NCBI GenBank assembly: GCA_015711795.1
Contig: JACVJC010000021.1
Span: 1-36,746 of the forward strand
Direction: 5' to 3'
Source: Candidatus Geothermocultor quzhuomuensis
GTDB lineage: Bacteria > Actinomycetota > Aquicultoria > Geothermocultorales > Geothermocultoraceae
DNA length: 36,746 nt
Position 1 is the first letter of the stretch, and every line of letters begins with the position of its first letter. A program made the translations under genes and the position numbers. The notes below the pieces were generated by a model, which saw only the letters and a program-made list of their open reading frames with translations, did no database searches and was not told the origin of the DNA. Shown piece by piece: positions 1 through 24,076 of the stretch.

Positions 1-3000
1 TTACGCATTCAACCCTTGGAGATGTTCCAGTTACCGGGTGCTTGTAAGCTTTATTAAATTGAGTTTGAGTGCTTGAGTGACAGAGGTAGCACTGATTTTC
101 TTCATCAGCTTTGGCAATTACTTTGTACTCTGAATCATGGGTTCCAAAGGTTCCAAAGGTAATGGTTGTTTGATAAGTCTTGCCCATAGTGTCGTTGTGG
201 CACTTTGTGCAGTTAGCATTAAACTGAGTATTGTCAGAAAATTGAGAAGCTGTTGCATAGTTATGAGCACTTGAAGAATAGCTTGAGGTTTCAATCTTAG
301 CTTCCTGGGTCTTACCTAAAGTTGAAGTGTATGATGAATAGACAGTCTGACTTACCTTATGGCAAGTGGTGCAAATACCCCCTGAAGGATAACTTAAGTT
401 AAAGTCAGTTGAAGCTGTAGCTAAGTTAGTTCCAGTTGTTTGCCTTAAGTTAGCTGCTTTATAGTTATTAAATCTATCATGGTCAACATGGCAAGAGTTA
501 ATACAATTTCTGTTGGGATCAGAAAAGCTAGTTGTTGGGTCAGCAGTATCAGTTGTCATTAAGTGATGGTAACCAGTTGTTGTTGAGGTCATTCGGGTAT
601 AGATTGAGGAATGGCAAGTTGAGCAAGCCTGACCACCACCTGAGACGCCTGGTAGTGGTTTGTGAGGAACTCCAGTATGGCAACTACTGCAAGCTATGTT
701 AGCCGTGGTATCAGATAAGTAGTGACCACTCTTGGCAGGTAGCTTTTGAAGCTCATAGCCTAAGTAACGCTCAGGAACAGTTGGGGTTGTACGGCTTGAA
801 TCATTTTCCCTATGGCATGCTAGACAGAATCTTCTCTCTGAATTTAAGGTGTTTCCAGTTTCAGCTTCATACTCTTGTTTTAGCTCTTTGTTAACCATCT
901 TGTAACTTGATTCATGAGGATTATGGCAAACATAGCATGGAAGCTTGGTTCCTTGTGAATAAATGGCTGTTGAGGTTGCTGCAGCAATGTCTGGGTCAAA
1001 GTTAATCCTGTGCCCTACTCTTTCATTGTTTTCAGCTGAGTCAGTGTAGTCACTCTTTACATCAGTAGCTGGGTTTCCATCATGACATTCGAAGCAGAAA
1101 GAGTATGCAAGCTCATTATTGTTAGAGGCATAACTTTCAGGGGAAGTGAAGGTTGAAATAAGCATATCAAATAAGTTAGATGTTCCATGAGGATTGTGGC
1201 AGTTCTTACAGTCTCCAGCAGGATATGATGAACCTGGCCAGGTAACACTAGGATTAGTTGAGTGAGTTGATAACTCATAAGTTGATGTTCCTGGGAAGGT
1301 TCCAGTTATTGGATACCCATCATTGTAGTTCCCAGCAGTTCCTTTAGGAACAATGCCTGAGGTTGGATAGCCATTGGTTGAGTTAAAGTGGCAAGCACCA
1401 CAGACTGATATGTCGTTAGTGGTAACTGCCCTTGAGTTAATGGTTGCCTTCAATAGTTTAACCAGTGATGAAGCGTGTTTCTCATGGCAGGAGTCACATC
1501 TTATGTTAATGGTTGAGGTACCATGGCCAGTTGATGAATAGTAGGTGTTTTTGTTAGCAGTAGCTGTTGCATTCATTCTTACACTGTATGGAATATAGGT
1601 GGTATCATTTCTTGTTTCTTCTGGTAAAGCTCCATCGTGGCATTTTAAGCAGAAGGAGTTAGCGGTTGAAGTTGATGAATTAAAGCCAGTTATTAAGTTA
1701 TAGGTGTTATCTGGATCAGTCAGTTTACTACCTGCATTTATGGTAATTACATGGGGGTTATGGCAGTTAGCACATTCTGCTCTTTGAGTTGAGCCATCAA
1801 TTGGATGTTTTGAGGTCTTTCCAGTAAATTCAGTTTCAATATCGTCTGAGGCACTGCCTCCACTCTTATGGCAAATAAAGCACTGATTTTCTTCATCAGC
1901 TTTGGCAATTACTTTGTACTCTGAATCATGGGTTCCAAAGGTTCCAAAGGTAATGGTTGTTTGATATTCCTTGCCCATAGTGTCGTTGTGGCACTTTGTG
2001 CAGTTAGCATTAAACTGAGTATTGTCAGAAAATTGAGAAGCTGTTGCATAGTTATGAGCACTTGAAGAATAGCTTGAGGTTTCAATCTTAGCTTCCTGGG
2101 TCTTACCTAAAGTTGAAGTGTATGATGAATAGACAGTCTGACTTACCTTATGGCAAGTGGTGCAAATACCCCCTGAAGGATAACTTAAGTTAAAGTCAGT
2201 TGAAGCTGTAGCTAAGTTAGTTCCAGTTGTTTGCCTTAAGTTAGCTGCTTTATAGTTATTAAATCTATCATGGTCAACATGGCAAGAGTTAATACAATTT
2301 CTGTTGGGATCAGAAAAGCTAGTTGTTGGGTCAGCAGTATCAGTTGTCATTAAGTGATGGTAACCAGTTGTTGTTGAGGTCATTCGGGTATAGATTGAGG
2401 AATGGCAAGTTGAGCAAGCCTGACCACCACCTGAGACGCCTGGTAGTGGTTTGTGAGGAGCTAGCTGATGACAATAAGAACAGGTAGGTTGAGGAGCATT
2501 TGATTCATGGCCACTCTTTTCTGGCAACTTCTTTAAAGTCAAACCTTCAATAGTTGGCGTAGCAGCGCTTGAATCATAAGGTCGATGGCAATAGTTACAT
2601 AATTGCCTTTGAGTTTGGATAACTGTTCCAGTTGAAGTTTCAAAGTAATCTGGAGCCATTGCATAGTTTCCATTTTGAGAGCCATGAGGGTTGTGGCAGT
2701 CGTAGCAAGGAAGCATGGCGCCTTGAGGTAACCATGCCGTAGCTGTAGATTCCACAATTGTTGAAGCCCAATTGATTCGATGACCAGCTCGTTCATCGCT
2801 TCCAATATAATATTGGGCAATATCAGGACCAGGACCACCAGCTTTATGACACTCTAGGCAAAGTTGGTAGGAAGATTGTGTAATAGTGGTTGGTGATAGT
2901 GGAAAACTCTCTGGTGAAGAAAAGGTTGCCACCAACATATCATAGGAAGAACTGGTTCCATGAGGTCCATGACACAAATCGCAATCTCCAGGGGTAGAAA

Positions 3001-6000
3001 CCTTGCCAGTTAGTGGATTGTAAGTTGCTATCCGATGTCCATTAGTCACAGTGGTATAAGCTGTCTCTCCAGGATAAGTCCCAGTAGCTGGATAACCAGT
3101 ATCATTAGAAGGAGTTGGCAAGCGATATTGAGTATTAGTTGGACTACCTGGATAACCATTTGATTGATTAGTATGGCAATTAAAGCAAACAATAGTTGGA
3201 GTTGGAATGGTCATTGAAGTTGTCCGAATTCTAAGCATTTCGGGAATAACACCGCTGGCATCGCTATAGCCATGGGTGTCGTGGCACTGCAAGCACAGAC
3301 TACCAGGTCGGGTTGTCCCAGAGGCAAGGCCAAAGTCCCCTGGTATATCATAGTTTTGAGTTGTTTTTCCGTGAGGAGAATTTTCATAGGTTGAGCGGCC
3401 AAAATAAAGAGTTTGAGTTGGTCCAGTGTGACAAGCAAAGCAAATCTCGTTCCACTCAGTACTGGTTGGATTAGCAGTTTGTGGAATTGAAACACCGCTA
3501 ATGGTTGGTTGAATTAAAGCTTGGAATTTTGAACCGTGGCGAGCATGACACTGACCACACTTAGTTTGATATGGACTAGTTGGTATCCTCATATGATAAG
3601 TAGTGGTAAATTCAGAGTGATCTTTGCCTGTTTCAACCCAATAGTTACTGACTGAAGAAAAGAGGTCAGTATTGGCTCCTTGGTCATTTGGTCCATGGCA
3701 GAAGAGACAAAATCTTTCACCTAATGGAACTAGCGAAAAAGTTATTCCTTTAAAATTATATTCTGAGTAATAAGGAGGAGTAGACTTATTAACATAAATT
3801 ATGCTGCTACTTGGGTCACGATAATAAATAATTTTCTCATACCTATCTTCTCTCAAGATAATAATTGAACCATCGTTACCGACGAAGTGGACTGAATGAC
3901 AGCTTGTGCAGATGGGACCTTGAGCGTCTGAGTCAAAATGATTGGTAGTAGCAGAAGGTTGACCAGTGTATTCTCCAAACTCAGCTTGTGAATTAGTATC
4001 ACCAACCGAGCCTTCAGCACGATAATAAGTCAAGCTTCCATGGCACGCATAACAAGTTGATTTGCTCTTTGCCCCTAAAGCTTCTCCACTAGCATCGTGT
4101 AACTTATGGCAATCGGTACACCAGGTTGACCAAGAATAATTATGGAAACCACCGGCAAAGACACCTGAGCCCGTTTCAAAAGGAATGTTAGTATTACTAA
4201 CCGTGCCACCTTCAACAATGAAATTAGAAGTTGAAGAAATATTTAAACCAGCCAAAGCATGGCCAGGAGCAGAAGCACTAATATCGTAAACAACAAAGGT
4301 TGAGGTTGTTTCGCCACTTGCAATTACAATTGGGCTGGTAAAAGTGAATGTAGTGATTTCGTCAGAGTAGTTTGAAGGTGATGCTGAAATTAATCCGTCT
4401 TGAGAGGGATTGAACACTCCATCCCCGTTATCGCGATAAAACTTAACTGCTGAGACAGTTTGAGTAGCGGTGCCATTCCAATAGTCAGTAAGAAAAGGAG
4501 TAACATATTCATAAAGTGATATCGCAGTCCAAGTTGTTGTGCCGCCACTAGCGCTCAAATCAAGTCTAACCATTGGGACATTTGTTCTACCTACCTTGAT
4601 ATATCGAGGAGCTAATAATACTGGTGAAACTGTTAATTGAGCTAAAACTGTTAATTGAGCTAAAGGGGGTGTTATTGAAGCAAGAGACGAAGAATATGGA
4701 AGATTAAGGGGAGAAGCGCTATCAGGGGGGTCAACAGTAAATGAGTTAATCCTTGCTCCAATTGTTCTCGTGGTTGAAGCAGTGTTGCTCATAGCTAAGG
4801 TAATAAAGTAATAGAAATTAGAAGTGGTAGAAGCTTCTTCAGACGGGCTAATGTTAATAGTAGTTTCTCCACCATTAAAAGTACCGCTACCTAAAAGAGT
4901 ATCCCCATCATCCCATATGCTATCGATGGAACGGTAAATCTTAACGCCACCCGTTTGAACATCAGAATCTAAAGCAGTTCCAGTTGAATTTATCGTGATT
5001 GAACTCATATAGCCCGTTCCAGCCGTAGTTGACATCGTAAATCTAATAAAATCATCAGTTGCTCCCTGGTTAATAGTTAAAGGAGCAGTATCAAATGGAG
5101 AAAGGGTAACAACATTACCAGTAATTGGTCGGGCGACAGTTTCAGCTGGCAAATTAGTATCAGCTACTGTGTCCGGTGATTCAACAATGATGTAGCTTGT
5201 GCCCGGTGTGCCAATTCGGGCGCCGACTGTAGTATTAACTGTGGCATTATTAGATAAGTCATAAGCAACAAAATAATAATCGCTCACTGAGGTAGTGATA
5301 GTTTGAGTCGTTGTCAAGGTAACAGTTGTCACCCCACTCACAAAGGTATTAGAACCCAAGAAGGTGTCCGCCCCATCTAAAATGTTATCAGTTGAGGAGT
5401 AAACCTTAACTGCAGAAATATCACTATCAGAAGCTGTCCCAATCTTGTCAACCCGCAATTTAGTCCAGTCAGCCGTACTAGCATCAGTTTGAAGCCTGAA
5501 CCAAAGCATAGGCACCCGAAGCTCTCCTTGAGCAATTGAAGAGGGGCTAGCATCAGCTTTAGAGTTAACAGAAACAGTATTGCTAGCTGGAGCAGATGGT
5601 GTACCAATATCAGCATTGATATCAGGAGCAACTGTATCAGTTGTATCATTCCATAAACCATTTGAGTTTTTAGCAAAGACAACAAAACGATAATCTACTC
5701 CATTGGTCAACCCAGTAATTGTTGTAGTTTCATTAGAGTTAGGAATTGGGGAAAGATTCTGATAAGCAACGGTAGCAAAAGCATCACTGGAAGAAGTTGG
5801 CCAAACACCATCGGTTCGATAGAGAACTTTAACTTCCGCTAAATCACCATTGTTAGGATTGGTCCAGGATAAAGTGGACTGAGAATCTTCGCCATCAGTA
5901 GCATTAAAATTAGTTACTTGGTTTGGTGCAACATCAACATTAACATTGTCAAGGTAAACTCCTGCATCTTCATTGGCATCATTTTGCATATCATAGTAAA

Positions 6001-8689
6001 ACCTTAGTATATACGAAGTTTGAGCACTTACCTGAATCGGAGTAGCAGGTAGCCAACCCGTATTCACCCATCCTGTATTTCCAGATGCATCAACATCTAA
6101 TGTCCAAACAGTTTGAGTAGTTGGCAAGTCACCCCCTCCAATTTGTCCATATAACCAGCAGGGGTCATTTGACGCTTCAACCACATTGTAATCGGTTTTA
6201 AATCTAATATAAGTTTTAGTGCCCGCAGTACCGGTTGTTGAGAAACTTTGCCAAAGTTCACCATCAGCTTGTGAATTGTTACCAGTACCCGTCCATCTTC
6301 CATAAAAACAACCATTAGGATTGCCGCCTGTTGCCTGCTGAGCAAATGTAGTCATCGCATTTGCTCTATTAACAGGTGTTTGCTTAGTCCAGCTAGTCTC
6401 ACCACTTTCAAAATCACCATTGCTTATCAAATTTATAGCTACCGTGGGGCCATAAATGCTAAAAACAAAGGCAACAACGAGAACAAGAGCAAATAAAACC
6501 AGAATAAAAAGGTTAAGCCAGTTTAAATAAGTGCTAGGGAAGAGGGCTAAACGCTTTACAAAATAAAGCAGTAAAAGTAATAAAAAGATAACTCCAGCAA
6601 CCCAGTAAAAAAGAGGGGTGGAACGAACGGGAAAATCTTCTACCCCTGGTTTAGCAGTTTTTAAAACATCTTCTTCTCTGGCTTCAAAGTCTTCAAGAAT
6701 TCCCTTTGAAGCTAGAATTTTGGATTTATCCTTGTTTCCGCTTGGTTTGTTAAATTTTTTGTTAGGGTAGAAAGAATTAATATCCTTCGTTTCCTTCTTG
6801 TTAATAAAACTGGAAAGGGTTGAAATTTTGGGCTGAGAAAAACCGGAAAAAACTTGCTTTTCTCCTTCATCCTGGCTTTCCGTTAAAGAATCCCTATTAG
6901 AAAAGTAATTTGCTTCTGCTAACCAAGAAGCAATACCAGAACCCCCACCTGATGATGAAGGAGGGGGATTTAAGTTCTTTCCGTAAATTGCCCATTTCTC
7001 ACCGTCAAATTTCTGCCAGGCAAAAAGGTTGCTTCCCGTAACCGAGAAATACTCATCACTGGAACCCCGAGCAAGGCTTATTTTTTCTTGAGTATCAAGA
7101 TTATAAGCATAGATATTGTAATTATCGCCCTCCAATTCGGTCCAAGAAATTAAATTGCCTGAGATGTTGGGGAGAAGCTGAGGATTGTCATTTGAGGCAA
7201 TAGCAACTGTTTCTAAGGTATTGACATTATAAAGAAATATATCGCCATTGCCCAGGGTGGGATCAGCATAAACCACTCTTCCATCCGAAATGTTGGGAGT
7301 ATATTGGTCACCAGGTTTAACACAAATGGGGAATTCTTCACCAGTTAAAAGGTTGTAGCCATAAATATCATAGTTTCCACCTCTTCTGTCCTGCCAGACA
7401 ACAATGTCTCCATCAACATCCGGTAGATAAGCTTGATTGGCTGGTAAGACTCCTCTAATTCCAGTAAGTAAATCAAAGTAACAAATTTTACTTAAATCGC
7501 TATTTCCAGAAACCTCCTTTTTTTGCCAGACAATATAACGCTCGCTTACACGAGGGGTAGTTTGATTTGCTCCACTTACTTCTATAGGATATTCTATGCC
7601 TGTGCTCTGGTCTAAAAGAATGATGTCACCATTTCCACTGCGCCAATCTTCATAGACAATCTTGTCACTATAGATATCTGGGTGAACCTGGTCACCTCCG
7701 TGGGAACAAATAGCTAATTCTTTGCCTGAACCTGTAGCCAAATCTTTTAAGTAAATATCCCAATCGCCTCTTCTCATATCCTGCCAAACGACATAAAAAC
7801 CAGAAGCACTTGGTCTCTTAGCAAGAATATTAGGAGGACTTATTAACCCCTCAGCAAAGTAGAAAGGTTCTGGCTCCGGTGGTGGTTGTTCTCCTCCACC
7901 ACCTCCAGGTTGAGCAGGAGTAGCTGGAATTGCTGGCGTAGCTGGAGTGGCTGGTTGAGTAGGTTTACTAGGCTTTCCAGGCTGAGCAGGAGTTGCTGGT
8001 TGGGCAGGTGTAGCTGGTTGTGCCGGAGTGGCTGGTTGAGTAGAATTTTGGGGTAAAGGACCTTTTTTAAGGGAAGACTTCTCTGAGAAAGAAGAAATGT
8101 TCAAATTGAATTTTGCATCTTCAGGGTTGTAAAGGTCACCTTTAATTTCTCCTTGACCACCAAGAAAATCACTTTCCTCATCAAATCTTTGAGCCAATTT
8201 TCCCTTTTGCTCACTTTGGATTATTGAGCCAATAATGGGAATCTTAGAAGCAACTCTGGGGTTTGCCTTAACCAAAACACCTGTGCCGGCAACGGTTATA
8301 GTTATCACAATGGCTAATGCTTTTACCAAGGCTGGATGGGCACTAAAAATTGACTGAATCGATTGAGAAGAAGAGTTAACTAAGTTCTGAGCAAAAGCAG
8401 CTGTAGAACCTAAGAAGCTTTTTATTAAACCAAAAACTCCAAGAGAATAAAGGATTTTTTGTCTCGGCAGTGGTTTACTTTTTAACTCTAAAGAGACTTT
8501 CTGCCAAATTCTTTCGCGAATTTCTGGGGTAAAAGGTACCTGCTGTGTTCCCTTTAAAGCAAGATAAGATTCTAAAAGAGGTTCGAGTTCTCCTTTTTTA
8601 TCCGAATACCTCTCAAGACATTCACGAACACTTAATCCTGCTTTAATCAACTCTATACATTCTTCTAAAATATCTTCAATGTTTTCCAT
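1..8689 (-). CDS. Giant anti-sigma-like / TolB propeller / multiheme cytochrome fusion (3' end outside window)
   Basis: Reading from the ATG at 8689 I find no stop in this frame down to position 2, so at least 2,896 residues. Residues 1-45 carry an ECLxRYxxxxxELEPLL-type motif known from membrane proteins encoded next to ECF sigma factors. A transmembrane helix follows near 119-143, then a Pro/Ala/Thr-rich linker (about 215-268), a TolB-like propeller with repeated VWQDxRxGxxDIY-type blades (about 277-573), two transmembrane helices (about 696-716 and 723-746), a SNGDFESG beta-sandwich, an Fn3-like domain and three related beta-sandwich repeats (about 754-1517). From about 1523 there are 32 heme motifs (30 CXXCH, 2 CX3CH), all in one frame. 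Predicted topology: head in the cytosol, propeller and heme region outside. No other in-frame ATG, GTG or TTG lies before the upstream stop; the Shine-Dalgarno is weak. The sigma gene ends 70 bp upstream. Function is inferred. Confidence 0.9.
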   Translation of the reverse strand, partial: MENIEDILEECIELIKAGLSVRECLERYSDKKGELEPLLESYLALKGTQQVPFTPEIRERIWQKVSLELKSKPLPRQKILYSLGVFGLIKSFLGSTAAFAQNLVNSSSQSIQSIFSAHPALVKALAIVITITVAGTGVLVKANPRVASKIPIIGSIIQSEQKGKLAQRFDEESDFLGGQGEIKGDLYNPEDAKFNLNISSFSEKSSLKKGPLPQNSTQPATPAQPATPAQPATPAQPGKPSKPTQPATPATPAIPATPAQPGGGGGEQPPPEPEPFYFAEGLISPPNILAKRPSASGFYVVWQDMRRGDWDIYLKDLATGSGKELAICSHGGDQVHPDIYSDKIVYEDWRSGNGDIILLDQSTGIEYPIEVSGANQTTPRVSERYIVWQKKEVSGNSDLSKICYFDLLTGIRGVLPANQAYLPDVDGDIVVWQDRRGGNYDIYGYNLLTGEEFPICVKPGDQYTPNISDGRVVYADPTLGNGDIFLYNVNTLETVAIASNDNPQLLPNISGNLISWTELEGDNYNIYAYNLDTQEKISLARGSSDEYFSVTGSNLFAWQKFDGEKWAIYGKNLNPPPSSSGGGSGIASWLAEANYFSNRDSLTESQDEGEKQVFSGFSQPKISTLSSFINKKETKDINSFYPNKKFNKPSGNKDKSKILASKGILEDFEAREEDVLKTAKPGVEDFPVRSTPLFYWVAGVIFLLLLLLYFVKRLALFPSTYLNWLNLFILVLFALVLVVAFVFSIYGPTVAINLISNGDFESGETSWTKQTPVNRANAMTTFAQQATGGNPNGCFYGRWTGTGNNSQADGELWQSFSTTGTAGTKTYIRFKTDYNVVEASNDPCWLYGQIGGGDLPTTQTVWTLDVDASGNTGWVNTGWLPATPIQVSAQTSYILRFYYDMQNDANEDAGVYLDNVNVDVAPNQVTNFNATDGEDSQSTLSWTNPNNGDLAEVKVLYRTDGVWPTSSSDAFATVAYQNLSPIPNSNETTTITGLTNGVDYRFVVFAKNSNGLWNDTTDTVAPDINADIGTPSAPASNTVSVNSKADASPSSIAQGELRVPMLWFRLQTDASTADWTKLRVDKIGTASDSDISAVKVYSSTDNILDGADTFLGSNTFVSGVTTVTLTTTQTITTSVSDYYFVAYDLSNNATVNTTVGARIGTPGTSYIIVESPDTVADTNLPAETVARPITGNVVTLSPFDTAPLTINQGATDDFIRFTMSTTAGTGYMSSITINSTGTALDSDVQTGGVKIYRSIDSIWDDGDTLLGSGTFNGGETTINISPSEEASTTSNFYYFITLAMSNTASTTRTIGARINSFTVDPPDSASPLNLPYSSSLASITPPLAQLTVLAQLTVSPVLLAPRYIKVGRTNVPMVRLDLSASGGTTTWTAISLYEYVTPFLTDYWNGTATQTVSAVKFYRDNGDGVFNPSQDGLISASPSNYSDEITTFTFTSPIVIASGETTSTFVVYDISASAPGHALAGLNISSTSNFIVEGGTVSNTNIPFETGSGVFAGGFHNYSWSTWCTDCHKLHDASGEALGAKSKSTCYACHGSLTYYRAEGSVGDTNSQAEFGEYTGQPSATTNHFDSDAQGPICTSCHSVHFVGNDGSIIILREDRYEKIIYYRDPSSSIIYVNKSTPPYYSEYNFKGITFSLVPLGERFCLFCHGPNDQGANTDLFSSVSNYWVETGKDHSEFTTTYHMRIPTSPYQTKCGQCHARHGSKFQALIQPTISGVSIPQTANPTSTEWNEICFACHTGPTQTLYFGRSTYENSPHGKTTQNYDIPGDFGLASGTTRPGSLCLQCHDTHGYSDASGVIPEMLRIRTTSMTIPTPTIVCFNCHTNQSNGYPGSPTNTQYRLPTPSNDTGYPATGTYPGETAYTTVTNGHRIATYNPLTGKVSTPGDCDLCHGPHGTSSSYDMLVATFSSPESFPLSPTTITQSSYQLCLECHKAGGPGPDIAQYYIGSDERAGHRINWASTIVESTATAWLPQGAMLPCYDCHNPHGSQNGNYAMAPDYFETSTGTVIQTQRQLCNYCHRPYDSSAATPTIEGLTLKKLPEKSGHESNAPQPTCSYCHQLAPHKPLPGVSGGGQACSTCHSSIYTRMTSTTTGYHHLMTTDTADPTTSFSDPNRNCINSCHVDHDRFNNYKAANLRQTTGTNLATASTDFNLSYPSGGICTTCHKVSQTVYSSYTSTLGKTQEAKIETSSYSSSAHNYATASQFSDNTQFNANCTKCHNDTMGKEYQTTITFGTFGTHDSEYKVIAKADEENQCFICHKSGGSASDDIETEFTGKTSKHPIDGSTQRAECANCHNPHVITINAGSKLTDPDNTYNLITGFNSSTSTANSFCLKCHDGALPEETRNDTTYIPYSVRMNATATANKNTYYSSTGHGTSTINIRCDSCHEKHASSLVKLLKATINSRAVTTNDISVCGACHFNSTNGYPTSGIVPKGTAGNYNDGYPITGTFPGTSTYELSTHSTNPSVTWPGSSYPAGDCKNCHNPHGTSNLFDMLISTFTSPESYASNNNELAYSFCFECHDGNPATDVKSDYTDSAENNERVGHRINFDPDIAAATSTAIYSQGTKLPCYVCHNPHESSYKMVNKELKQEYEAETGNTLNSERRFCLACHRENDSSRTTPTVPERYLGYELQKLPAKSGHYLSDTTANIACSSCHTGVPHKPLPGVSGGGQACSTCHSSIYTRMTSTTTGYHHLMTTDTADPTTSFSDPNRNCINSCHVDHDRFNNYKAANLRQTTGTNLATASTDFNLSYPSGGICTTCHKVSQTVYSSYTSTLGKTQEAKIETSSYSSSAHNYATASQFSDNTQFNANCTKCHNDTMGKTYQTTITFGTFGTHDSEYKVIAKADEENQCYLCHSSTQTQFNKAYKHPVTGTSPRVECV
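88..668 (-). repeat. 581-bp near-perfect direct repeat, copy 2
   Basis: Second copy, offset by exactly 1791 bp (in frame). The three mismatches fall in one codon (176-178). The surrounding module has diverged much more, which points to recent gene conversion or recombination inside the array. Confidence 0.92.
92..1882 (-). repeat. 14-heme module, second copy
   Basis: The motifs at 1868, 1760, 1637, 1484, 1388, 1196, 1082, 923, 812, 677, 611, 488, 359 and 197 repeat the pattern of the preceding module with a period of 1791 nt (597 residues). The CYLCH motif at 77-91 sits where a third module would begin, so the array probably continues past the left edge. Confidence 0.8.
1879..2459 (-). repeat. 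581-bp near-perfect direct repeat, copy 1
   Basis: Identical by eye to 88-668 except at 1967-1969, where one codon reads Glu (GAA) instead of Thr (ACT). It covers the last four heme motifs of a 14-heme module (CSTCH, CINSCH, CTTCH, CTKCH) and the stretch leading to the first cysteine of the next. Identity drops sharply at both ends. Confidence 0.92.
1883..3709 (-). repeat. 14-heme module, first copy
   Basis: Within the giant cytochrome the heme motifs at 3695, 3545, 3428, 3281, 3173, 2969, 2846, 2693, 2585, 2468, 2402, 2279, 2150 and 1988 match, in order and spacing, the 14 motifs of the next module. Flanking residues match too: PCYDCHNPHGS here against PCYVCHNPHES there, and ERAGHRINW against ERVGHRINF. 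Module length is about 609 residues. Confidence 0.8.
4628..4663 (-). repeat. Tandem 18-bp duplication in the giant gene
   Basis: Two perfect in-frame copies of an 18-bp unit encode LAQLTV twice, at the junction between two beta-sandwich repeats. Probably a slippage product in a linker. Confidence 0.85.
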
Positions 8690-8759: not shown

Positions 8760-9326
8760 TTAAAGAAGATTTTCTAACTTTGCATAGCTGTTGAAAATTC
8801 GAGACAAGGTTGCTAATCCCCTCCGTTGAAGTGCTCTTACCCCTCCTTCAGTTTTTCCCATAATTTTAGCGACTTCTGAAGCGGTCAATCTTTCAATAAA
8901 CCTTAAAATAATCACTTCTCGCTGCTCTTCAGTTAAATTCATCAAAGCTTCATAAAGACTTTCTAAGGTTAAATTATTTACCACAATTTCTTCTGGTTCT
9001 ACTTTTGCTTCCTTGATACTTTCTGCTTTTTCAAACTCATCAAGGATATATTTTCTTCTTTCACGGAACAAGTCTATCACCACGTTGTGAGCAATTTTAT
9101 AAAGCCAGGCTGTGAAAGGTTTTTCCGTTATTTGGTAATCCTTTATCTTTTCAAAAGCTTTCAAAAAAACTTGACCAGTTAATTCCTCAGCATCAAAGGG
9201 ATTTCCTACCTTAAAGTAGATGTATTTATATATTCCCTCGACAAAGAGGTTATAAATTCTTTCAAAAGCTTTTAAACTTCCCTTTGTTGCCTCTTCAACT
9301 AATTTATTAAGAGCCTCTCTTTCCAC
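8760..9326 (-). CDS. ECF-type RNA polymerase sigma factor
   Basis: A 188-residue sigma-70 family protein of normal ECF length. Region 2 is visible at about residues 25-90 (DAEELTGQVFLKAFE, then FTAWLYKIAHNVVIDLFR), and region 4 at about 130-175 (LTEEQREVIILRF, then a helix-turn-helix ending EGGVRALQRRG). The start is GTG at 9326 behind GAAGGA. It lies 70 bp upstream of the giant cytochrome gene on the same strand. The head of that protein looks anti-sigma-like, so the two probably form a sigma/anti-sigma pair in one transcript. Target promoters are unknown; no sigma-specific promoter could be identified from one window. Confidence 0.93.
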   Translation of the reverse strand: MEREALNKLVEEATKGSLKAFERIYNLFVEGIYKYIYFKVGNPFDAEELTGQVFLKAFEKIKDYQITEKPFTAWLYKIAHNVVIDLFRERRKYILDEFEKAESIKEAKVEPEEIVVNNLTLESLYEALMNLTEEQREVIILRFIERLTASEVAKIMGKTEGGVRALQRRGLATLSRIFNSYAKLENLL

Positions 9327-9508: not shown

Positions 9509-11566
9509 CTACTTACTCCTCCCTGCTCGCTTTTTAACTCGTTTTAAAGCCTCGCTTATCCCTGAATAGTTGGGGTCTTCTTGATATACTTTTTGGTAAG
9601 CTTGATAAGCCTCGCTAAGTTTTCCTAAATTTTCATAAGCTTGACCTAAGCTAAACAAGACCTCACTGTTTCCTGGCTCTATCCTTAAGAACTCTTTTGC
9701 TTGAACAACTGCCTCTTCAAATCTACCTAGCTGTAGAAGAACCCTTATGAGACCTCGACGAGGACCTTTGAATAAAGGGTCGATCTCTACAACCATTCGA
9801 TAATATCTAGCCGCTTCCTCAATCATCAAAGAATTGTAATTTAACCCCAAGTATTCATAAACCTGAGCCAACCTAGCAATAACATCTTCCTCGTAAGGAT
9901 TGAGCCTTACTCCTTCCTTTAAAATTTCAATCCCCTTATTGATTGAAGTTAAATCACTCCCTGCTTGACCTCGAGTTAAATACATATCAGCTAAGGCGTT
10001 TCGATAAATTGCACGGTAAGGGTTAAGCTCTAAAGCTCTTTGATACTTTTGAGCATAAATTTGAGGATTGCCTTTCCCATAGAAAGTCATAGAAGCAACA
10101 GAATAAAAATTCATATCGGCAATAAAAGGCTTTGTTGCTAAAAGAGATAAAAATAAGAAAGGAAAAAAGACCAGGAAAACTAAACCAAGCTTATAAGAGC
10201 TGGGTAAAGTAATTTCTAACTTGAAATAACTTTTTTGCTTAAATAAAAAAGAACAAAGCAAACCAAAAAATATCCAGATAACAGTAACAATACCAATAAT
10301 AGTGATGCTAAAAAATGCCTGTACAAGATAACCAAAAAGTGCAGCAGCCATTCCTTTAAGATAAATGTTATCCCCCTTTAATTGAGGGAATATAAAAAGA
10401 CCAACCATTAAAAGAAGCCAAAAGAAGAAGAGAAAGGCAAGAAGCCCCATATCAGCAGCGATTTGGAAATACTCATTATGAACCCTATCGGGCATAGTCA
10501 TCTCTCCCTCAAGCTTGGTGTAGCGAACGGTTCGATATTTTGGAAATTGATAAAGCATCTGGTCTAAGCCAAAACCCCAAAGAGGTCTATCTCTAATCAT
10601 TTTGAGGGTACCTTTCCAAATTTCTATCCTGGTCGCGGCAGTCCCAGCTGAGATTTCCACTGTTGACCTAGCTCTACCTTTCAAGTATTCCAATTTTTGA
10701 CCCACATTTCCTTGAGAAGTCATAAAAAGAAGAAAAAAAACAACAACAAAAGTAGCGAGAAATAAAAATATCAGTCGGCTTAAATTAGGAAATATTCCTT
10801 TATAATAAAGGATTAGAACAAAAATTAATCCTGACGCAATGCCCAACCAAGCTCCTCTTGACAAAGCAAAAAGAGAACTAGCTAAGCAAAAAATAAATAA
10901 AAAACTATAGGGAAGAAAAAGAGGAATTCGGTAGGTTGAAAATAACTTAATGTGTCTTCTGCCCTCACTAAAGAAGAAATTTAAGATCAAGGGAATGATA
11001 GTAGCCAAATATCCTCCAAAAAAAACAGCATTCCCTAGGGTTGAACGGGCTCTATCCCTTTCAGGTCGCTGCATAAAGTCTGGAAGAAAATCCCAGCCAA
11101 AGGCTTGAGCAACTCCATAGAGAGCAATAAAGAGGCAAGAAATAAGAAGAGCTATAAAAATCTTTCTTGCCCATTTTTCTTCTTTCATGTATTGGGAAGT
11201 CAGAAAAAAAATGAAAGCAAAACAATAAATTGTTTGTAAGGTTTCGTATCTCCCATATTCCCCAAAAATGCTAGCAATAGGAAGGGGAGAAAATAAAACA
11301 GAAATAGTTGCCACTAAAACAAAAAGAAGAACAGGATAAAAAAGGGGAAACTTTTCAATAACAATTTCTCCTCTGAAGATTATTCGAGCTAAATAAAGAA
11401 AAAGAAGCAAAAGTGAAAAGAGATAAAGAAGAGTGGCTTTAGTTAAATCAAAAGCATCAAAAGTGCGAGGTGAAACAATTAAAGGAATGGTAAAGGCAAT
11501 AACAACAATAGTCCAACGGATAAAATTATCAAAAAGATTGGAAATCTCTTGAAATCCTCTTCTCAT
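9509..11566 (-). CDS. O-antigen ligase (Wzy_C) family membrane protein with C-terminal TPRs
   Basis: 685 residues. The first ~480 form a polytopic membrane region with landmarks shared by all five paralogs here: RSTLGN then FFGGYLA (about 174-187), SRGAW (about 236-240), IWKGT...LWGFGLD (about 316-335) and DRVHNEYFQ (about 360-368). Family members join lipid-linked glycans to LPS or to proteins at the outer face of the membrane. Residues about 500-685 are TPR repeats with ALELNPYR- and VEIDPLFKG-type helices. The C terminus (YQAYQKVY...SGISEALKRVKKRA) is closest to the paralog at 32076-34085. It lies 183 bp upstream of the sigma gene and may share its transcript. Start ATG with GGATGTT ahead. 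Substrate unknown; glycosylation of surface cytochromes is inference. Confidence 0.85.
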   Translation of the reverse strand: MRRGFQEISNLFDNFIRWTIVVIAFTIPLIVSPRTFDAFDLTKATLLYLFSLLLLFLYLARIIFRGEIVIEKFPLFYPVLLFVLVATISVLFSPLPIASIFGEYGRYETLQTIYCFAFIFFLTSQYMKEEKWARKIFIALLISCLFIALYGVAQAFGWDFLPDFMQRPERDRARSTLGNAVFFGGYLATIIPLILNFFFSEGRRHIKLFSTYRIPLFLPYSFLFIFCLASSLFALSRGAWLGIASGLIFVLILYYKGIFPNLSRLIFLFLATFVVVFFLLFMTSQGNVGQKLEYLKGRARSTVEISAGTAATRIEIWKGTLKMIRDRPLWGFGLDQMLYQFPKYRTVRYTKLEGEMTMPDRVHNEYFQIAADMGLLAFLFFFWLLLMVGLFIFPQLKGDNIYLKGMAAALFGYLVQAFFSITIIGIVTVIWIFFGLLCSFLFKQKSYFKLEITLPSSYKLGLVFLVFFPFLFLSLLATKPFIADMNFYSVASMTFYGKGNPQIYAQKYQRALELNPYRAIYRNALADMYLTRGQAGSDLTSINKGIEILKEGVRLNPYEEDVIARLAQVYEYLGLNYNSLMIEEAARYYRMVVEIDPLFKGPRRGLIRVLLQLGRFEEAVVQAKEFLRIEPGNSEVLFSLGQAYENLGKLSEAYQAYQKVYQEDPNYSGISEALKRVKKRAGRSK

Positions 11567-13803: not shown

Positions 13804-15858
13804 TTGAGCCATAAATATTACAACAAAATTATTGAATGGGGATTCCTAGCTTTTCTCTTCCTCTATCCAATTTCAATTAATCCTTTTTTCCGCCCCACTT
13901 TTTCTCTTTTTAAATTAACGATACTCCGTCTTTTCACCTTAACTTTTCTTATTTTGTGGTTAGGAAAAGCAATTGTTCAAAAAAAATTGAAAATAACTTC
14001 TTCTCCTCTGCTTCCCCCTTTATTTACTCTTCTTACTTTAACTGCTCTCTCTACCATCTTCTCCATTAACTTACCAACTGCCCTCCTAGGTGAATACACA
14101 AGATTTGAGGGTTTCCTAACCCAAGTTAACTACTTTCTCATTGCCTTTCTCTTTTTAAACTATCAACTTAATGAAAAAAAAAGAATCACCCGAATTACCT
14201 TTTACTTCCTTGCTGGAGCCACTCTTGTTTCTTTAATCGCTATTTTTGAACATTTCTTCTTTAACCCTGTATTTTTTAGCCAAATAGAACATCTGGGAAA
14301 AGAAGGGTATCTCCAAAAAATTAGTGCTCGTTCCATTGCTACCTTTGGCAATACTGTCTTTTTAGGCTGGTATCTTTCCATGGCTTTCCCTTTCTCCCTT
14401 GCTACTTTTTGGAATCAAATAATTTTAAAAAAACATCGATTAATTCACTTTTTCTTTCTTTTCGCTATTCTCACTGCTATGATTTTCACCTACTCCCGAG
14501 GGGCTTGGGTCAGTGCTTTTCTATCAACCATTTTTCTCTTAACCATCTTAAGGAAAGAATTCAACAAAAAGCTATTTATTTCACTCATTGCTTTAATTCT
14601 TCTAGTTCTCTTAATTAATTCCCTCCCTACCCACTCAGGTTATCAGGTAACTATGCGGTTAAAAGGGTTAATTGAAACGGAAAGAGGGACAAGTGGTGGA
14701 AATCGTTTAATTATGTGGAAGTACACACTCCCAATCATTTTTAAATATCCCTTATTAGGAGCAGGGCTTGATACCTACAAATTAACCTTTCCTAGATTTA
14801 AGGGTTCTCCTTGGGCAACCTCATATCGAAGTGCTTTAGTTGATAAAGCCCACAATGAGCTTTTACAAATAGGGGCGACCATTGGGCTTTTTGGTGTTAT
14901 TACTTTTCTTTGGGTAATTGTTCTTACCTTTATTAAGGGGCTTTCTTTCCTCCAAAGAGAAAAAGAGAAAAGCTATCGCTTCTTGACCGCTGGTTTACTG
15001 GGGGCTGTTCTTGCCTACTCTATTGATATGCAGTTTCTTTTTAGCCAATTTGCAGTAACTCCTTTTCTTTGGTTCTTCATTGGGGTGGTTTTCTCGATAA
15101 TCTCCACAAAAGCTAGGGAAAAAGATGACATCGAGATTGATTTATCTAAGGGAAAGGTTAAAGCTCTTTATCCTATAATTGCCCTTTTTCTCCTTTCAAT
15201 GCTCATTTCTCTTAGCTTATGGCTAGCTGATGTTTACTATCAAAAAGCTCAGACAATTAATTTTGGTAAGCAAAGCTCAAAGGAGGCAATTAAGTTGATG
15301 GAAAAAGCAACCACCTTAAATCCTTTTGAGAGTTTCTACTGGTCTTATTTAGCCCGAAATTACTTAGCTATTGGGAAAAGCTCCAACAATCCTCAACTAT
15401 ACCTTTATTGGTTACAAAAAGCTGAACAATGCTATCTCAAATCAATCTCACTTAACCCATACAAAGAAATAACCTATTACTCAGCTTCTCAAGATTTTGT
15501 ATCCGCTGGTCAACAGCTCTTTAGAAAAGACCTCATTGAAAAAGGCATAAGCTATGCTGCTAAAACTCTTGAGATAAACCCTTACTCCTCAGACCACAAT
15601 GCCCAAATGGGAAATGCCTATGGCAGTCTGGGTGTTTTAAACAGTCAAAAAGAAATGTTTAAAAAAGCATTATTTTATTTCAAGAAAAGTGTCCAACTTG
15701 ACCCTCAAAATGCCGATTATTATAACCTAGGCTGGGCATATGAAAAGCTAGGAAAAATCAAAGAAGCTATTTGGGCTTATAAAAAAGCAGTAGAACTAAG
15801 AAAAGATAAAGACGCTCAAAAAGCCCTTAAGAGACTGATGACTCAAATAAATGATTAA
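13804..15858 (+). CDS. O-antigen ligase (Wzy_C) family membrane protein with C-terminal TPRs
   Basis: 684 residues, starting at TTG (13804) with GAGGTGA upstream. The membrane half carries RSIATFGN...FLGWYLS, YSRGAW and DKAHNELLQ, the landmarks shared by the five paralogs. The C-terminal ~200 residues are TPRs (ATTLNPFES, SISLNPYKE, SVQLDPQNA). A perfect TATAAT at 13769-13774 may be the -10 of its promoter but lacks a convincing -35. It is transcribed toward the hexaheme gene at 15949-16827, and its last codons and flank are duplicated at 11690-11770. Likely a surface glycan ligase or polymerase; substrate unknown. Confidence 0.84.
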   Translation: MSHKYYNKIIEWGFLAFLFLYPISINPFFRPTFSLFKLTILRLFTLTFLILWLGKAIVQKKLKITSSPLLPPLFTLLTLTALSTIFSINLPTALLGEYTRFEGFLTQVNYFLIAFLFLNYQLNEKKRITRITFYFLAGATLVSLIAIFEHFFFNPVFFSQIEHLGKEGYLQKISARSIATFGNTVFLGWYLSMAFPFSLATFWNQIILKKHRLIHFFFLFAILTAMIFTYSRGAWVSAFLSTIFLLTILRKEFNKKLFISLIALILLVLLINSLPTHSGYQVTMRLKGLIETERGTSGGNRLIMWKYTLPIIFKYPLLGAGLDTYKLTFPRFKGSPWATSYRSALVDKAHNELLQIGATIGLFGVITFLWVIVLTFIKGLSFLQREKEKSYRFLTAGLLGAVLAYSIDMQFLFSQFAVTPFLWFFIGVVFSIISTKAREKDDIEIDLSKGKVKALYPIIALFLLSMLISLSLWLADVYYQKAQTINFGKQSSKEAIKLMEKATTLNPFESFYWSYLARNYLAIGKSSNNPQLYLYWLQKAEQCYLKSISLNPYKEITYYSASQDFVSAGQQLFRKDLIEKGISYAAKTLEINPYSSDHNAQMGNAYGSLGVLNSQKEMFKKALFYFKKSVQLDPQNADYYNLGWAYEKLGKIKEAIWAYKKAVELRKDKDAQKALKRLMTQIND

Positions 15859-15948: not shown

Positions 15949-16827
15949 TTATTCTGGTAGTTGAGAGGTGGGGTGGCAGTTTAGGCAAAGGTCATCACCG
16001 GTTTCTAAGCGGAAAAGAGGATTTTCAGTTCGATGAGGAAAAAATTTCAATCCAGGATTATCAGTAGCAGAATAAGTAGTGGGGCTATTACAAGTAAAAG
16101 TAAGAATAGCATCAGTTACATCATCATCAACTTCACGAGAATCCTCATGGCAATACTGACAAATTGGTGAAGTTCGAGGTTGCCAACCTGCTGGACTCAT
16201 TCGATATGCCCCATTTGACCTTGCTAATGAAGAATTAGCCCATGTCAAAGCTGCTGTATTGGTTTGGTGATTTGTTCCTCCCATACCGGTTCGGACATTG
16301 TGACAGTCAGTGCACCAATCGCCACTATAATCACTAATGGTTTGCGTTCCATAACCAGGAAGAGAAGGTGCATAAGTTTGAGAGCCACCTTTCCGCAGAA
16401 GACGAGAAGAGCTATAAGTAGCAGAGGTATCAGAGATATATGGATTAACCGTATTTCTATCATGAGGACTATGACACCCTCCACAAAGAGGTTTCTCCTC
16501 TTCAGGAGTACCAATACCCAAGGTAGATGAAGCAGTTAAAGTTGCATTAGGATTATGGTCCGCCAAAGTAGTTACACCAATAGTAGTATAAGGTTTAAAT
16601 AGAGCCTGTCCACCTGCTCCATGACAAACCTCACAAGTTGCTAAGAAGGTTGCCCCAAGTAAAAGCTTATAACCTCCCGGTGCATCGTGAAGAGTGTGAC
16701 AATCACTACACTTATCTGTTGTCGAAGCATAACCTCCATGAGGATTTTCAACACTAAAAGCTATTCCAACCAAGCAAAAAAGGGAAAAAAGAATAAAAAC
16801 TAAAAAAAGTAATATATACCTTTTCAC
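15949..16827 (-). CDS. Secreted hexaheme c-type cytochrome (module C)
   Basis: 292 residues from the GTG at 16827 (AGGA upstream); a longer frame to 16884 overlaps the promoter at 16871-16900 and is rejected. The signal peptide is about residues 1-25. Six CXXCH motifs: CSDCH, CEVCH, CGGCH, CTDCH, CQYCH, CLNCH. Exactly six histidines lie outside these motifs (PHGGY, TLH, ADHN, SPH, TNHQ, FPHR), and each has a counterpart in the paralogs at 18162 and 23110, as expected for bis-histidine ligation of all six hemes. The protein ends in the family signature ETGDDLCLNCH and is Ser/Thr-rich. It lies downstream of an NHL propeller gene. Hexaheme count recalls nanowire cytochromes such as OmcS, but homology to them is not shown. 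Confidence 0.93.
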   Translation of the reverse strand: MKRYILLFLVFILFSLFCLVGIAFSVENPHGGYASTTDKCSDCHTLHDAPGGYKLLLGATFLATCEVCHGAGGQALFKPYTTIGVTTLADHNPNATLTASSTLGIGTPEEEKPLCGGCHSPHDRNTVNPYISDTSATYSSSRLLRKGGSQTYAPSLPGYGTQTISDYSGDWCTDCHNVRTGMGGTNHQTNTAALTWANSSLARSNGAYRMSPAGWQPRTSPICQYCHEDSREVDDDVTDAILTFTCNSPTTYSATDNPGLKFFPHRTENPLFRLETGDDLCLNCHPTSQLPE

Positions 16828-16870
16828 TCCGTTTCCTTTCTGCCCCTTATATCTGCAAAATACTGGATAA

Positions 16871-16900
16871 AGTATAAAACCCAAGATAGTATGTTGTCAA
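16871..16900 (-). promoter_or_regulatory. Strong sigma-70-type promoter of hexaheme gene C
   Basis: Minus strand TTGACA (16895-16900), 18-bp spacer, TATACT (16871-16876). Expected start of transcription is near 16864, about 37 bases before the GTG at 16827. It lies in the NHL-cytochrome gap, so the cytochrome can be expressed without the NHL gene. Confidence 0.75.
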
Positions 16901-16931
16901 GAATTCTTTTAAAAAAAATTTTTAAAAAAAC

Positions 16932-16959
16932 TAATAATTAAATTCTAATAATTAAATTC
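16932..16959 (-). repeat. Tandem 14-bp duplication at the NHL gene stop
   Basis: Two copies of TAATAATTAAATTC (plus strand), the second overlapping the last codons of the NHL gene and the first lying just past its stop. Likely slippage. Confidence 0.8.
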
Positions 16960-18000
16960 AGGGAGAATTTCGTATCGAAGAAGTTTCACTGCTTGGACTC
17001 TCTGGTTACCACTATCTGCTAGATAAATTACCCAATTAGAGCCAACTTTTAACCCCCGAGGGAAGTTAAAATGCCCTTTATCTTCTCCTCTTCCACCAAC
17101 TTCAGCTAAGCGTTCACCTTGAGGGCTATACACTTGAATGGTGTGGTGAAAAGTATCAGCCACATAGATATTCCCATCAGGAGCTATCCCTAATCCAGCC
17201 GGGAGCCCAAACCTCCTTTGCGCTTCCCGAATACCTGCTGGAGGTTTACCAACTACCCACTTAAGCTTTCCTTTGGAAGAATAAGCATGAAGAGTCATGT
17301 TTAAGCCATCAGCCACATAAATTGTCCCATCGTCTCCAACTGCTATTCCGTCCGGTCCATCAAGTTGACTTCTTTCTCTTCCAGTTTCTCCAATCGTTTT
17401 TAAGAATCTTCCTTTCTCATTAAAAACTACGATTCTTCCTCGGTCGGTCACATAAATTTTCCCTCTGTAAACCGCTACCATCAAAGGATTTATTAAAGAA
17501 TAGTTTGATGAATTAGGGAAAAAGCGAATAAAGTTACCATCTGAGGTGTAGATATTAATCCGCCGATTGCCTGAGTCTACTACATAAACATTCCCATTAA
17601 TATCAATATCAATACCGGCTGGATAATGAAAATCCCCTGGTTTCCAGGTTGCTTTAACTCCCCCAGGTGGAGTGGCAATACCCGTTTCTCCAAAACTAAA
17701 TTTGAAGCGACCAAACCGATTAAAAACAAAAACTTTATCTGCATCAATATCAGTAACATAAATATCACCTAAATCATTTAAGGCAACATCATAAGGACGA
17801 ATAAACTTAGGTTGAGGTTCGGTGCCTGGGCCGCAAATAGCCATTATAAATTCTAGAGCACCAATTCTTTCAGTCCCAGAAAGGATTATTCCTGTCCCTC
17901 GTTTGGGCAACATAAAAAGATAAAAATAAGCCAAGAAATTAACTAAAATGAGCAAAAAAACCAACAAGATTTTCTGCTTAGTTAATTTTGAAAATTTCAA
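16945..18000 (-). CDS. Membrane-anchored NHL beta-propeller protein (module C)
   Basis: 351 residues from a TTG at 18000 with AGGAGGAG upstream. One transmembrane helix near 11-32 is followed by the LPKRGTG motif shared by the three NHL paralogs, placing the rest outside the cell. The body is a run of NHL blades with repeated signatures (DVALNDLGDIYVTD, GIDIDINGNVYVVDSGN, GIAVGDDGTIYVADGLN, GLGIAPDGNIYVADTFH), consistent with a six-bladed propeller. NHL propellers are usually binding scaffolds. It sits 60 bp before the stop-to-promoter region of hexaheme gene C and 161 bp after hexaheme gene B. Its role as assembly factor or partner of the cytochrome is inferred from repeated pairing. Confidence 0.9.
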   Translation of the reverse strand: MKFSKLTKQKILLVFLLILVNFLAYFYLFMLPKRGTGIILSGTERIGALEFIMAICGPGTEPQPKFIRPYDVALNDLGDIYVTDIDADKVFVFNRFGRFKFSFGETGIATPPGGVKATWKPGDFHYPAGIDIDINGNVYVVDSGNRRINIYTSDGNFIRFFPNSSNYSLINPLMVAVYRGKIYVTDRGRIVVFNEKGRFLKTIGETGRERSQLDGPDGIAVGDDGTIYVADGLNMTLHAYSSKGKLKWVVGKPPAGIREAQRRFGLPAGLGIAPDGNIYVADTFHHTIQVYSPQGERLAEVGGRGEDKGHFNFPRGLKVGSNWVIYLADSGNQRVQAVKLLRYEILPEFNY

Positions 18001-18161: not shown

Positions 18162-19046
18162 CTATGGCAACTCTGTTGTTATATGGCAATTTAAACAAAG
18201 GTCATCGCCAGTCTCAACTACAAACCTGGGAGAAGCCCCTTGATGGGGATAAGATTTATATTGAGGATTATCGCTTGCCCCGTAGCCAACCGTCGTAATG
18301 AAAAAGTCATTTTCAGTGTCTCTTAAGTCTTCATGGCAATATTGACAAATTGGAGAAGTCCTTGGTGCAAATCCAACTGGAGACATCCGATAAGCTCCGT
18401 TACTTCTAGGTAAATTTGATGAGGCATAAGAAAGGTCTTCGTTAGTTGGATGATTCCTTAAATTAGGATAAGAGCTCATTCGACGATTGTGGCAAATCGA
18501 ACACCAATAACCACCATAAAAAGGTGAGTAAACAGAAGTGTTAGGATTTGGTCTTTTTAAAAGGAGATGTGAGGTAAGAGTAGTGGTAGTGTCACAATAA
18601 TAAAAGGAAGTTGGGGGAATCATCCGATTAGGATTCCCATGAACTGAATGGCAAGAAGAACAAGTTAAAGTTCTTGGTAAAGAGTAATCGCCGCCAGGGA
18701 TGGTGATAGTCCCTTCAGCCGTGTGAGTACTTTCAGGATTAAGAACTACACCATAAACAGCAATCCCTGGACCACCACTAGGATCGTGGCAATACTGACA
18801 GTTATCAAAAATTGTTTCATAACGAAGAAGTTTAAAAGCTGACTGAGCAAGGTGAACAGCGTGACATTCCTTACACTTATTAGTTGTTGCTGTATAATCG
18901 CCGTGAGGTCCATAAGGAGGAGAGGTATACTGTAAAGGAACATTATAACCAGCCCCTAAAACTAATGACGGAGCTAATAGTAAAAAAATCAATAGTATTA
19001 TACCCCATAAATAATTTCTGTATCCAAATTCATAAATTTTGTGCAT
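18162..19046 (-). CDS. Secreted hexaheme c-type cytochrome (module B)
   Basis: 294 residues, ATG start at 19046, with a hydrophobic signal segment at about 13-31. Six CXXCH motifs: CKECH, CQYCH, CSSCH, CSICH, CQYCH, CLNCH. The six distal histidines shared with the paralogs are at PHGDY, AVH, STH, SVH, NHP and YPHQ; one further histidine is not conserved. It shares the C-terminal ETGDDLCLNCH signature and the SNGAYRMSP block with the 15949 gene. Unlike the other two hexaheme genes it has no clear TTGACA-type promoter directly upstream, where 349 bp of AT-rich sequence separate it from the NHL gene. Role: extracellular electron carrier, by family; filament formation is only a possibility. Confidence 0.92.
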   Translation of the reverse strand: MHKIYEFGYRNYLWGIILLIFLLLAPSLVLGAGYNVPLQYTSPPYGPHGDYTATTNKCKECHAVHLAQSAFKLLRYETIFDNCQYCHDPSGGPGIAVYGVVLNPESTHTAEGTITIPGGDYSLPRTLTCSSCHSVHGNPNRMIPPTSFYYCDTTTTLTSHLLLKRPNPNTSVYSPFYGGYWCSICHNRRMSSYPNLRNHPTNEDLSYASSNLPRSNGAYRMSPVGFAPRTSPICQYCHEDLRDTENDFFITTVGYGASDNPQYKSYPHQGASPRFVVETGDDLCLNCHITTELP

Positions 19047-19395
19047 AAATATCCAATCTAAATGGTTCTTAAATTTTAATTTTCCAATTTTTCAAACAAA
19101 AGAAATTTGAAATTTTGAGACATTGTAATTTATTATTTATTTTTTGGCTTCGGATTTTCTCTAACTCCTATTTTACTTCACCTTTTAGCCTTTCAACTCT
19201 CTTTCTTGGCGCTTTCAAGGGAATTTCTCTCCAATTATAGTTATAAGTTATAAAAAATTAAAAAGAGATTTTTCTTTCTTTCATTTTCCTTCCATACCAA
19301 AAATCATTTTTTATCTTATCTTCTAAAGAATTAAGCGTCAATAGAAAAAACAGTGGAGAGCAAAGGAGTGGGCAATTTTTGTTACCCGCTATCTG
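19047..19395. other. 349-bp intergenic region between NHL gene B and hexaheme gene B
   Basis: AT-rich and without a coding frame worth keeping. I see no strong terminator hairpin and no near-consensus promoter. Poor candidates such as TTGAAA-N17-TTAAGA occur close to the hexaheme start. If transcription starts here, the promoter is weak or uses another sigma factor. Confidence 0.5.
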
Positions 19396-23109: not shown

Positions 23110-23958
23110 CTAGGGCAACTCCGTAGTTATATGGCAATTCTGGCAAAGGTCGTCACCAGTTTCTGCTCTCAGTCTTGTGCTAATAGTTTCATGTGGGAAA
23201 TTAGCGTACTCTGGGTTGACACCAGTTGGATAAGTTGCTGAAATTGGATTAAAGTTAAAGGCAGTTTCAACATCTCGGTAATCCTCATGGCACTGCTGAC
23301 AAATGGGGTCAGGGTCATCACCGCTAGTGAGTGTCATTTTATAACGGGCATTGGTTCTACCCAAGTTTCCCGTGCCAGCCGATGAAGTAACATAGTTATA
23401 GTAGTAAGTTGCAGTATCTACCGGGTGGTTAGCCAGAGTCCCAGTGACATGTCTTCTAGAGTGGCAGTCAGCACAGAATCTCGCACCATAATTAACAGTT
23501 TGGGATGTCGCCACAGGTTGATTGGGATTGGGGTCCCTCAGGACTAAGCGGTTAGATTGAGTATCAGTAGTATCACCAAGAAAAACATCGACTACTCTAT
23601 TAGGGTTATCATGAGGGCTGTGGCAAGATGAGCAAGTTAAAGTAGTTGTGAGATTTTCAATTCCGAGTTCCAGACTACCAGTAGTAGTCTCACAAGTATG
23701 GCTTGCTCCTTCAGTATAAGTGAACTCGTAAACCCTTTTAGCTGTAGCTCCATCATGACAATATTGACAAGTGTCATAAACAGTGTTTCTCATTAACAAC
23801 TTTAAAGTGCCCTGTGCTTCGTGGACATCATGGCATTCTTTACATTTATCAGTAACATCTGAATAATTACCATGAGGTCCAGCTGCTCCCATAGCCAAAG
23901 TAATGGAAAGGGTCAAGAGGCCAATAACCAGTACTATCAAAAGAGAAGCTTTACGCAA
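23110..23958 (-). CDS. Secreted hexaheme c-type cytochrome (module A)
   Basis: The best start is TTG at 23958: AAAGGAGG lies seven bases upstream. The longer GTG start at 23967 would overlap that ribosome-binding site. The product is 282 residues with a signal peptide to about residue 23. Six CXXCH motifs: CKECH, CQYCH, CSSCH, CADCH, CQQCH, CQNCH. Distal histidines match the paralogs (PHGNY, DVH, ASH, SPH, NHP, FPHE), and the ending is ETGDDLCQNCH. It has its own near-perfect promoter (24020-24049) and its own terminator, so it is probably the most strongly expressed gene of the cluster. An extracellular electron carrier; whether it polymerises cannot be told from sequence alone. Confidence 0.94.
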   Translation of the reverse strand: MRKASLLIVLVIGLLTLSITLAMGAAGPHGNYSDVTDKCKECHDVHEAQGTLKLLMRNTVYDTCQYCHDGATAKRVYEFTYTEGASHTCETTTGSLELGIENLTTTLTCSSCHSPHDNPNRVVDVFLGDTTDTQSNRLVLRDPNPNQPVATSQTVNYGARFCADCHSRRHVTGTLANHPVDTATYYYNYVTSSAGTGNLGRTNARYKMTLTSGDDPDPICQQCHEDYRDVETAFNFNPISATYPTGVNPEYANFPHETISTRLRAETGDDLCQNCHITTELP

Positions 23959-24019
23959 ATTATTCACCTCCTTTCGCTTTACCTTAAATTTTCATTATTA
24001 AGTTTTAAAAAGCTTTTTT

Positions 24020-24049: not shown

Positions 24050-24076
24050 GCTTTTTATAATTTTTTTTAAAAAAAT

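Follow-up and report, generated by a model that had tools for sequence, protein, structure and literature searches.

Organization of the locus

The window analyzed here, 36,746 nucleotides in length, is an entire contig (C21) of a 38-contig, 1.76-Mb MAG. It carries a giant ORF that starts with an ATG and contains no stop codon, in agreement with the continuous frame of at least 2,896 codons reported in the initial annotation; because the window is the whole contig and the ORF runs off its end, the C-terminus of the encoded protein (P0001) is missing. From the N-terminus to the C-terminus, P0001 consists of a head, a transmembrane (TM) helix, a Pro-rich linker, a TolB-like β-propeller, a membrane hairpin, about five β-sandwiches and 32 heme motifs (Table 1). 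Directly upstream, across a gap of 70 nt, lies a gene for an ECF sigma factor, for which the nearest NCBIfam model is TIGR02952 ("BldN family"; 161 bits, under the curated cut-off of 206).

Table 1. Coordinates of the predicted features of the giant ORF and of the adjacent genes in the window
Feature	Residues	Positions	Strand	Evidence or remark
Whole fusion ORF		2..8689	-	minimum length 2,896 aa; open up to the contig end
Anti-sigma-like head, helical, predicted cytoplasmic	1-72	8474..8689	-	leave-one-out HMM, sigma neighbor, model helices
TM helix 1	119-141	8267..8335	-	hydropathy and sequences of relatives
Pro/Ala-rich low-complexity linker	217-277	7859..8041	-	Pro-rich linker also in the relative P0002
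TolB-like β-propeller	278-582	6944..7858	-	TIGR04275, E 3e-52
Two-helix membrane hairpin	690-742	6464..6622	-	hydropathy; absent from the relative P0002
About five β-sandwich modules	745-1515	4145..6457	-	fn3 E 1.1e-7, weak BNR_assoc_N, alignment; five counted by eye
Multiheme c-type cytochrome region	1524-2871	77..4120	-	30 CXXCH + 2 CX3CH
First copy of repeat R (584 nt, 5 heme motifs)		1879..2462	-	repeat search
Second copy of repeat R, close to the contig edge		88..671	-	4 differences relative to the first copy
Gene for an ECF sigma factor (188 aa), presumed partner		8760..9326	-	Sigma70_r2 E 3.7e-13, Sigma70_r4 E 2.9e-12
O-antigen ligase/TPR membrane protein, third gene of the conserved cluster		9509..11566	-	Wzy_C E 9.4e-24

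The HMM domain search that had been proposed for this locus yielded, with Pfam and NCBIfam, the ECF sigma, propeller, fn3 and cytochrome domains. The TolB-like propeller is confirmed both by the match to TIGR04275 (174 bits, 6 repeats) and by an AlphaFold model (pLDDT 86) for which the best PDB matches identified by Foldseek are TolB proteins. The other propeller matches in the class (in G006, G011, G002, G032 and others) are in ORFs that contain no hemes and look like secreted propeller proteins. The estimate of "five or so" β-sandwiches agrees with our own count, made by eye, and the modules include an fn3 domain at residues 924-1011.

The expected minimum of 32 hemes was recovered exactly, and this region contains MtrC/MtrF-like, Paired_CXXCH and cytochrome c7/c3 domains (PF22113, PF09699, PF14522, PF14537); a search of PDB chains with the heme region at E ≤ 1e-5 gave no match. 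Two copies of a repeat (R) are located within it. In this genome, contig C20 breaks off within repeat R and shares 103 identical bases with it, and the contig of the second fusion described below also ends within a stretch matching this repeat, which suggests gene conversion or recent duplication among these cytochromes. Because the near-identical repeat sits at the edge of the contig and recurs at the end of C20, the layout past residue ~2,075 can be trusted less; 13 of the 32 heme motifs come before this point.

Contig C20 encodes a headless relative (L034, 7753-11562) with an N-terminal TM, an SLH-like stretch recognized by eye, a Big_5 Ig domain and 12 hemes, which also runs off the contig end; the head is thus not a general feature of these cytochromes. 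Gene pairs that each combine a small multiheme cytochrome, ending with "...GDDLCLNCHxT(S/T)xLP", with an NHL propeller recur in the window (15949-18000, 18162-20319 and 23110-25138) and in L034 (4642-6880), most with an N-terminal hydrophobic stretch. A heme-free protein of 4,191 aa (L069, 60-12635, contig C19) starts inside a propeller at the contig start, and L070 (1-897, contig C22) may be its N-terminal part. Five O-antigen-ligase-like TPR proteins are encoded amid the cytochrome genes of the window (9509-11566, 13804-15858, 21056-22969, 32076-34085 and 34101-36170; Wzy_C confirmed for two) and might glycosylate surface cytochromes. The cytochrome cluster also includes a Rex-type repressor (PF06971 and CoA_binding; 28619-29317, minus strand), which is a candidate for NADH/NAD control of the cluster.

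An independent fusion in a second genome

A search for the same fusion in related genomes, as suggested in the initial annotation, identified a second case in the same class but in another family (G013:C146, L065; CALKMS010000146.1). Here, an ECF sigma gene (1922-2521) is followed, 6 nt later, by the start of a gene for a fusion protein, P0002, of at least 1,359 aa, which starts with a cytoplasmic segment and one TM and continues with a Pro-rich linker, a propeller, a sandwich and at least 15 hemes. Identity to the window protein is 41% for the propeller, 48% for the last sandwich together with the hemes, and 45% for the fusion. P0002 lacks the hairpin and about four of the sandwiches of the window protein, such that only the last sandwich is common to the two. 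In both genomes the three-gene cluster has the same order, namely O-antigen-ligase/TPR protein, ECF sigma factor and fusion, and the L065 O-antigen-ligase/TPR protein shows 41% identity to the product of window gene 9509-11566 vs 22-29% to the four further proteins of this kind in the window.

The head of P0002 is shortened, with the TM starting near residue 56, and the head profile gives no match to it; the head is therefore not equally conserved in the two fusions. In the sigma factor tree, the sigma factors of both fusions are on long branches, and the analysis gives no decision for or against their being sisters (p-AU 0.51). The fusion was found in 2 of the 397 genomes searched in the phylum, and a scan of public genomes for it returned nothing besides the record of L065 itself.

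The head belongs to an ECF-linked domain family

The initial annotation had noticed in the N-terminal region a motif of proteins encoded beside ECF sigma genes, and profile analysis bears this out. A head profile built without the window sequence matched residues 2-62 of P0001 with E = 6.5e-12 (Z = 1e6), and profile search identified the head as a homolog of the N-terminal domain found in DUF5667-type proteins. We collected 45 distinct head domains, that of the window among them, and in every case an ECF sigma domain precedes the head on the same strand at a distance within 400 nt (median 22 nt, maximum 316 nt). Members of the family occur in numerous genomes of this class, and other classes of the phylum have them as well.

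The part of these proteins outside the membrane differs among the relatives: it is DUF5667 in the five head relatives scanned and, in another group, a ~930-aa tandem-repeat protein (typical repeat "NANxxFLxxLxxxLDPxV"). Loci of the latter kind, in which sigma-adjacent heads run into ~930-aa tandem-repeat proteins, occur in other families of the phylum (L113-L118), and in several of these a similar second repeat protein follows. Since the head stays with the sigma gene while the outside part changes, it is a movable module, and such a combination, judged from sequence, would be the usual picture for anti-sigma factors. With all its 45 members beside an ECF sigma domain and with three kinds of outside domain, the head family looks like an undescribed modular anti-sigma domain. 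No match to PF18915 (DUF5667) was detected in P0001, even with the N-terminal piece at E ≤ 10; given that the DUF5667-type head is present and the DUF5667 domain absent, we do not name the window protein a DUF5667 protein.

At 23-32% identity to its relatives, the window head retains every invariant position of the family (C11, C24, L25, L35, L39, also Y28). The two cysteines (encoded at 8657-8659 and 8618-8620, respectively) are invariant in 18 of the 18 aligned heads, while some heads outside the alignment lack one or both; a thiol switch or a metal site is possible for this pair. The head is not a zinc anti-sigma (ZAS) domain: residues 1-118 contain no cysteines other than C11 and C24 and no CxxC, and the HxxxCxxC motif is accordingly absent. 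Neither the head sequence by itself nor the head profile retrieved a credible match in PDB sequence searches. As regards a relationship to the RsbN class (ASDIII), the profile matched no anti-sigma factor among PDB chains at E ≤ 10. In a single-sequence model of residues 1-150, residues 1-40 are helical (pLDDT 83-89), and confidence is low beyond residue 45.

Membrane topology

Of the membrane segments, the hairpin of the initial annotation was recovered (helices 692-711 and 722-742), and an additional TM helix at residues 119-141 that had been overlooked brings the number of TMs in the window protein to three. This helix sits where the DUF5667-type relatives carry their single TM. The charges flanking it show no clear preference for an N-in orientation; a moderately hydrophobic stretch, residues 79-96, may form another helix. 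In c-type cytochromes, heme attachment takes place on the outer side of the membrane. As the single TM of P0002 precedes its hemes, which must be outside, the N-terminus of P0002 is inside, and the three TMs of the window protein give the same result for its N-terminus.

Genes for cytochrome c assembly proteins are present in the genome, as are genes for M50 intramembrane proteases. We infer that the host is a one-membrane bacterium, perhaps an actinobacterium; no Omp85 outer-membrane protein was found in the genome (100% complete according to the MAG table), and the top-scoring chains for RpoB are presumably those of Streptomyces and mycobacteria.

A tentative model and its alternatives

As the overall explanation we favor, with reasonable though far from complete confidence, the reading of the window protein as a membrane-bound anti-sigma factor of the kind known from Tt-TolB and RsgI, with a multiheme cytochrome as its extracytoplasmic part. 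The components of this reading differ in strength. The open frame, its domains, the neighboring sigma gene, the family of the head and the conserved cluster and fusion are direct observations. From its sequence relationships, the head likely binds the sigma factor encoded by the upstream gene, and the outside part probably regulates this sigma factor. That heme or electron flow is the signal is possible, if rather unlikely; and the full chain, in which an ECF sigma factor receives, through one polypeptide, the redox state or electrical contact of a multiheme cytochrome at the surface, such that extracellular electron flow directly sets expression, is a speculative proposition that we regard as doubtful.

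In the proposed mechanism, the cytoplasmic head would hold the ECF sigma factor from the upstream gene at the membrane. Residues 119-141 would span the membrane, with the propeller, sandwiches and hemes outside and the hairpin dipping back into the membrane. An outside trigger, which may be a ligand or partner at the propeller or else the assembly, contact or redox state of the cytochrome, would cause the head to let the sigma factor go via intramembrane cleavage or a change of shape, and the freed sigma factor would then switch on its regulon.

The most serious competing explanation assigns sensing solely to the propeller, as in Tt-TolB. The cytochrome would then be a passenger that the anti-sigma anchor keeps at the cell surface, and no redox signal would reach the sigma factor; we give this a real but minor chance. 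The head-TM-propeller unit on its own fits the layout of Tt-TolB, the propeller of which is presumably the sensor; the hairpin adds a membrane anchor between the propeller and the hemes in the window protein; and head relatives with other outside domains imply that the head needs no heme. However, the propeller, the last sandwich and the hemes go together in both known fusions, in P0002 without an intervening hairpin, and the headless multiheme proteins of the same genome imply that anchoring requires no anti-sigma head.

A second alternative, in which the head is vestigial or a mere membrane signal anchor and the sigma factor is controlled by something else, appears improbable: the strong shortening of the P0002 head, which no longer fits the family profile, would accord with it, but the window head has kept all invariant family positions, and a sigma gene lies directly upstream of the fusion in both genomes.

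Finally, a head-heme join produced by an assembly or frame artefact, conceivable for a MAG contig with a near-identical repeat at its edge in common with C20, is extremely improbable: the same cluster with the same fusion, 45% identical, exists in an independent genome of another family, which rules out such an artefact between the head and hemes 1-13, the repeat starts past residue ~2,075 after 13 hemes, and inspection of the frame and of repeats found no stop and no long repeat between the head and the first hemes, all of which speaks against the join or frameshift within 4,100-8,689 that the initial annotation had named as refuting it.

Turning back to the reading of the window protein as an anti-sigma factor with a cytochrome outside, its interest lies in the open question of how extracellularly respiring bacteria sense their surface electron carriers. 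A sigma factor inhibitor inside a cytochrome would, if this reading is true, be a very direct answer, and the cell may then be able to switch genes in response to events at its surface wiring.

Comparison with known systems

The initial annotation knew of no described protein with this architecture. Our literature searches do not contradict that statement with regard to the combination, for which we found no precedent and no paper on a fusion of an anti-sigma factor with a cytochrome; the separate elements, in contrast, each have precedents.

A precedent in layout is Tt-TolB of Thermoanaerobacter tengcongensis, the anti-sigma factor of Tt-RpoE1, which binds its ECF sigma factor through the N-terminus and contains a TM and a TolB domain (PMC3397946). 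Its gene is directly downstream of that of the ECF sigma factor, and the protein consists of a short cytoplasmic N-terminus, one TM and a TolB domain outside (PMC3397946); in the window protein, likewise, a TM is followed by a TolB-like propeller, and the gene comes after an ECF sigma gene. The likeness is one of layout; Tt-TolB, with 645 aa and a 39-residue head, has no hemes, hairpin or sandwiches. The DUF5667 (PF18915) proteins share with the window protein a homologous head, a TM behind it and the same place beside the sigma gene, but the window protein has a propeller and a cytochrome in place of the DUF5667 domain. A literature search on DUF5667 found no published work, and binding or inhibition of sigma factors by this family is not reported in the papers found.

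The heme part has the same Pfam domains as MtrC/MtrF and paired-CXXCH cytochromes; unlike in these, it is joined through the membrane to a sigma-linked head. Extracytoplasmic heme c that acts as a sensor and is attached through the membrane to a signaling domain is found in the chemoreceptors GSU0582 and GSU0935 of Geobacter (PMC3460858), in which, however, a single heme is bound in a PAS fold and the output is chemotaxis rather than a sigma factor.

The RsgI anti-sigma factors of Clostridium thermocellum, which sense substrate through surface domains that are sensors or enzymes and are cleaved in the membrane by RseP (PMC12203970), resemble the window protein in that a cytoplasmic head is followed by a TM and then by a surface part which is a binding or enzyme module in its own right and serves as a surface sensor for a sigma factor (PMC12203970). 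They differ in the head, in the partner, SigI, and in the surface parts, which are carbohydrate modules or enzymes rather than cytochromes. The window protein is not a member of the RsgI family: it has no RsgI-type Pfam match and no RsgI N-terminal domain, and its neighboring sigma factor is of the ECF type, not SigI. If our reading is true, the idea embodied by RsgI and Tt-TolB, that a surface machine is its own sensor, would reach from polymer degradation to electron transfer.
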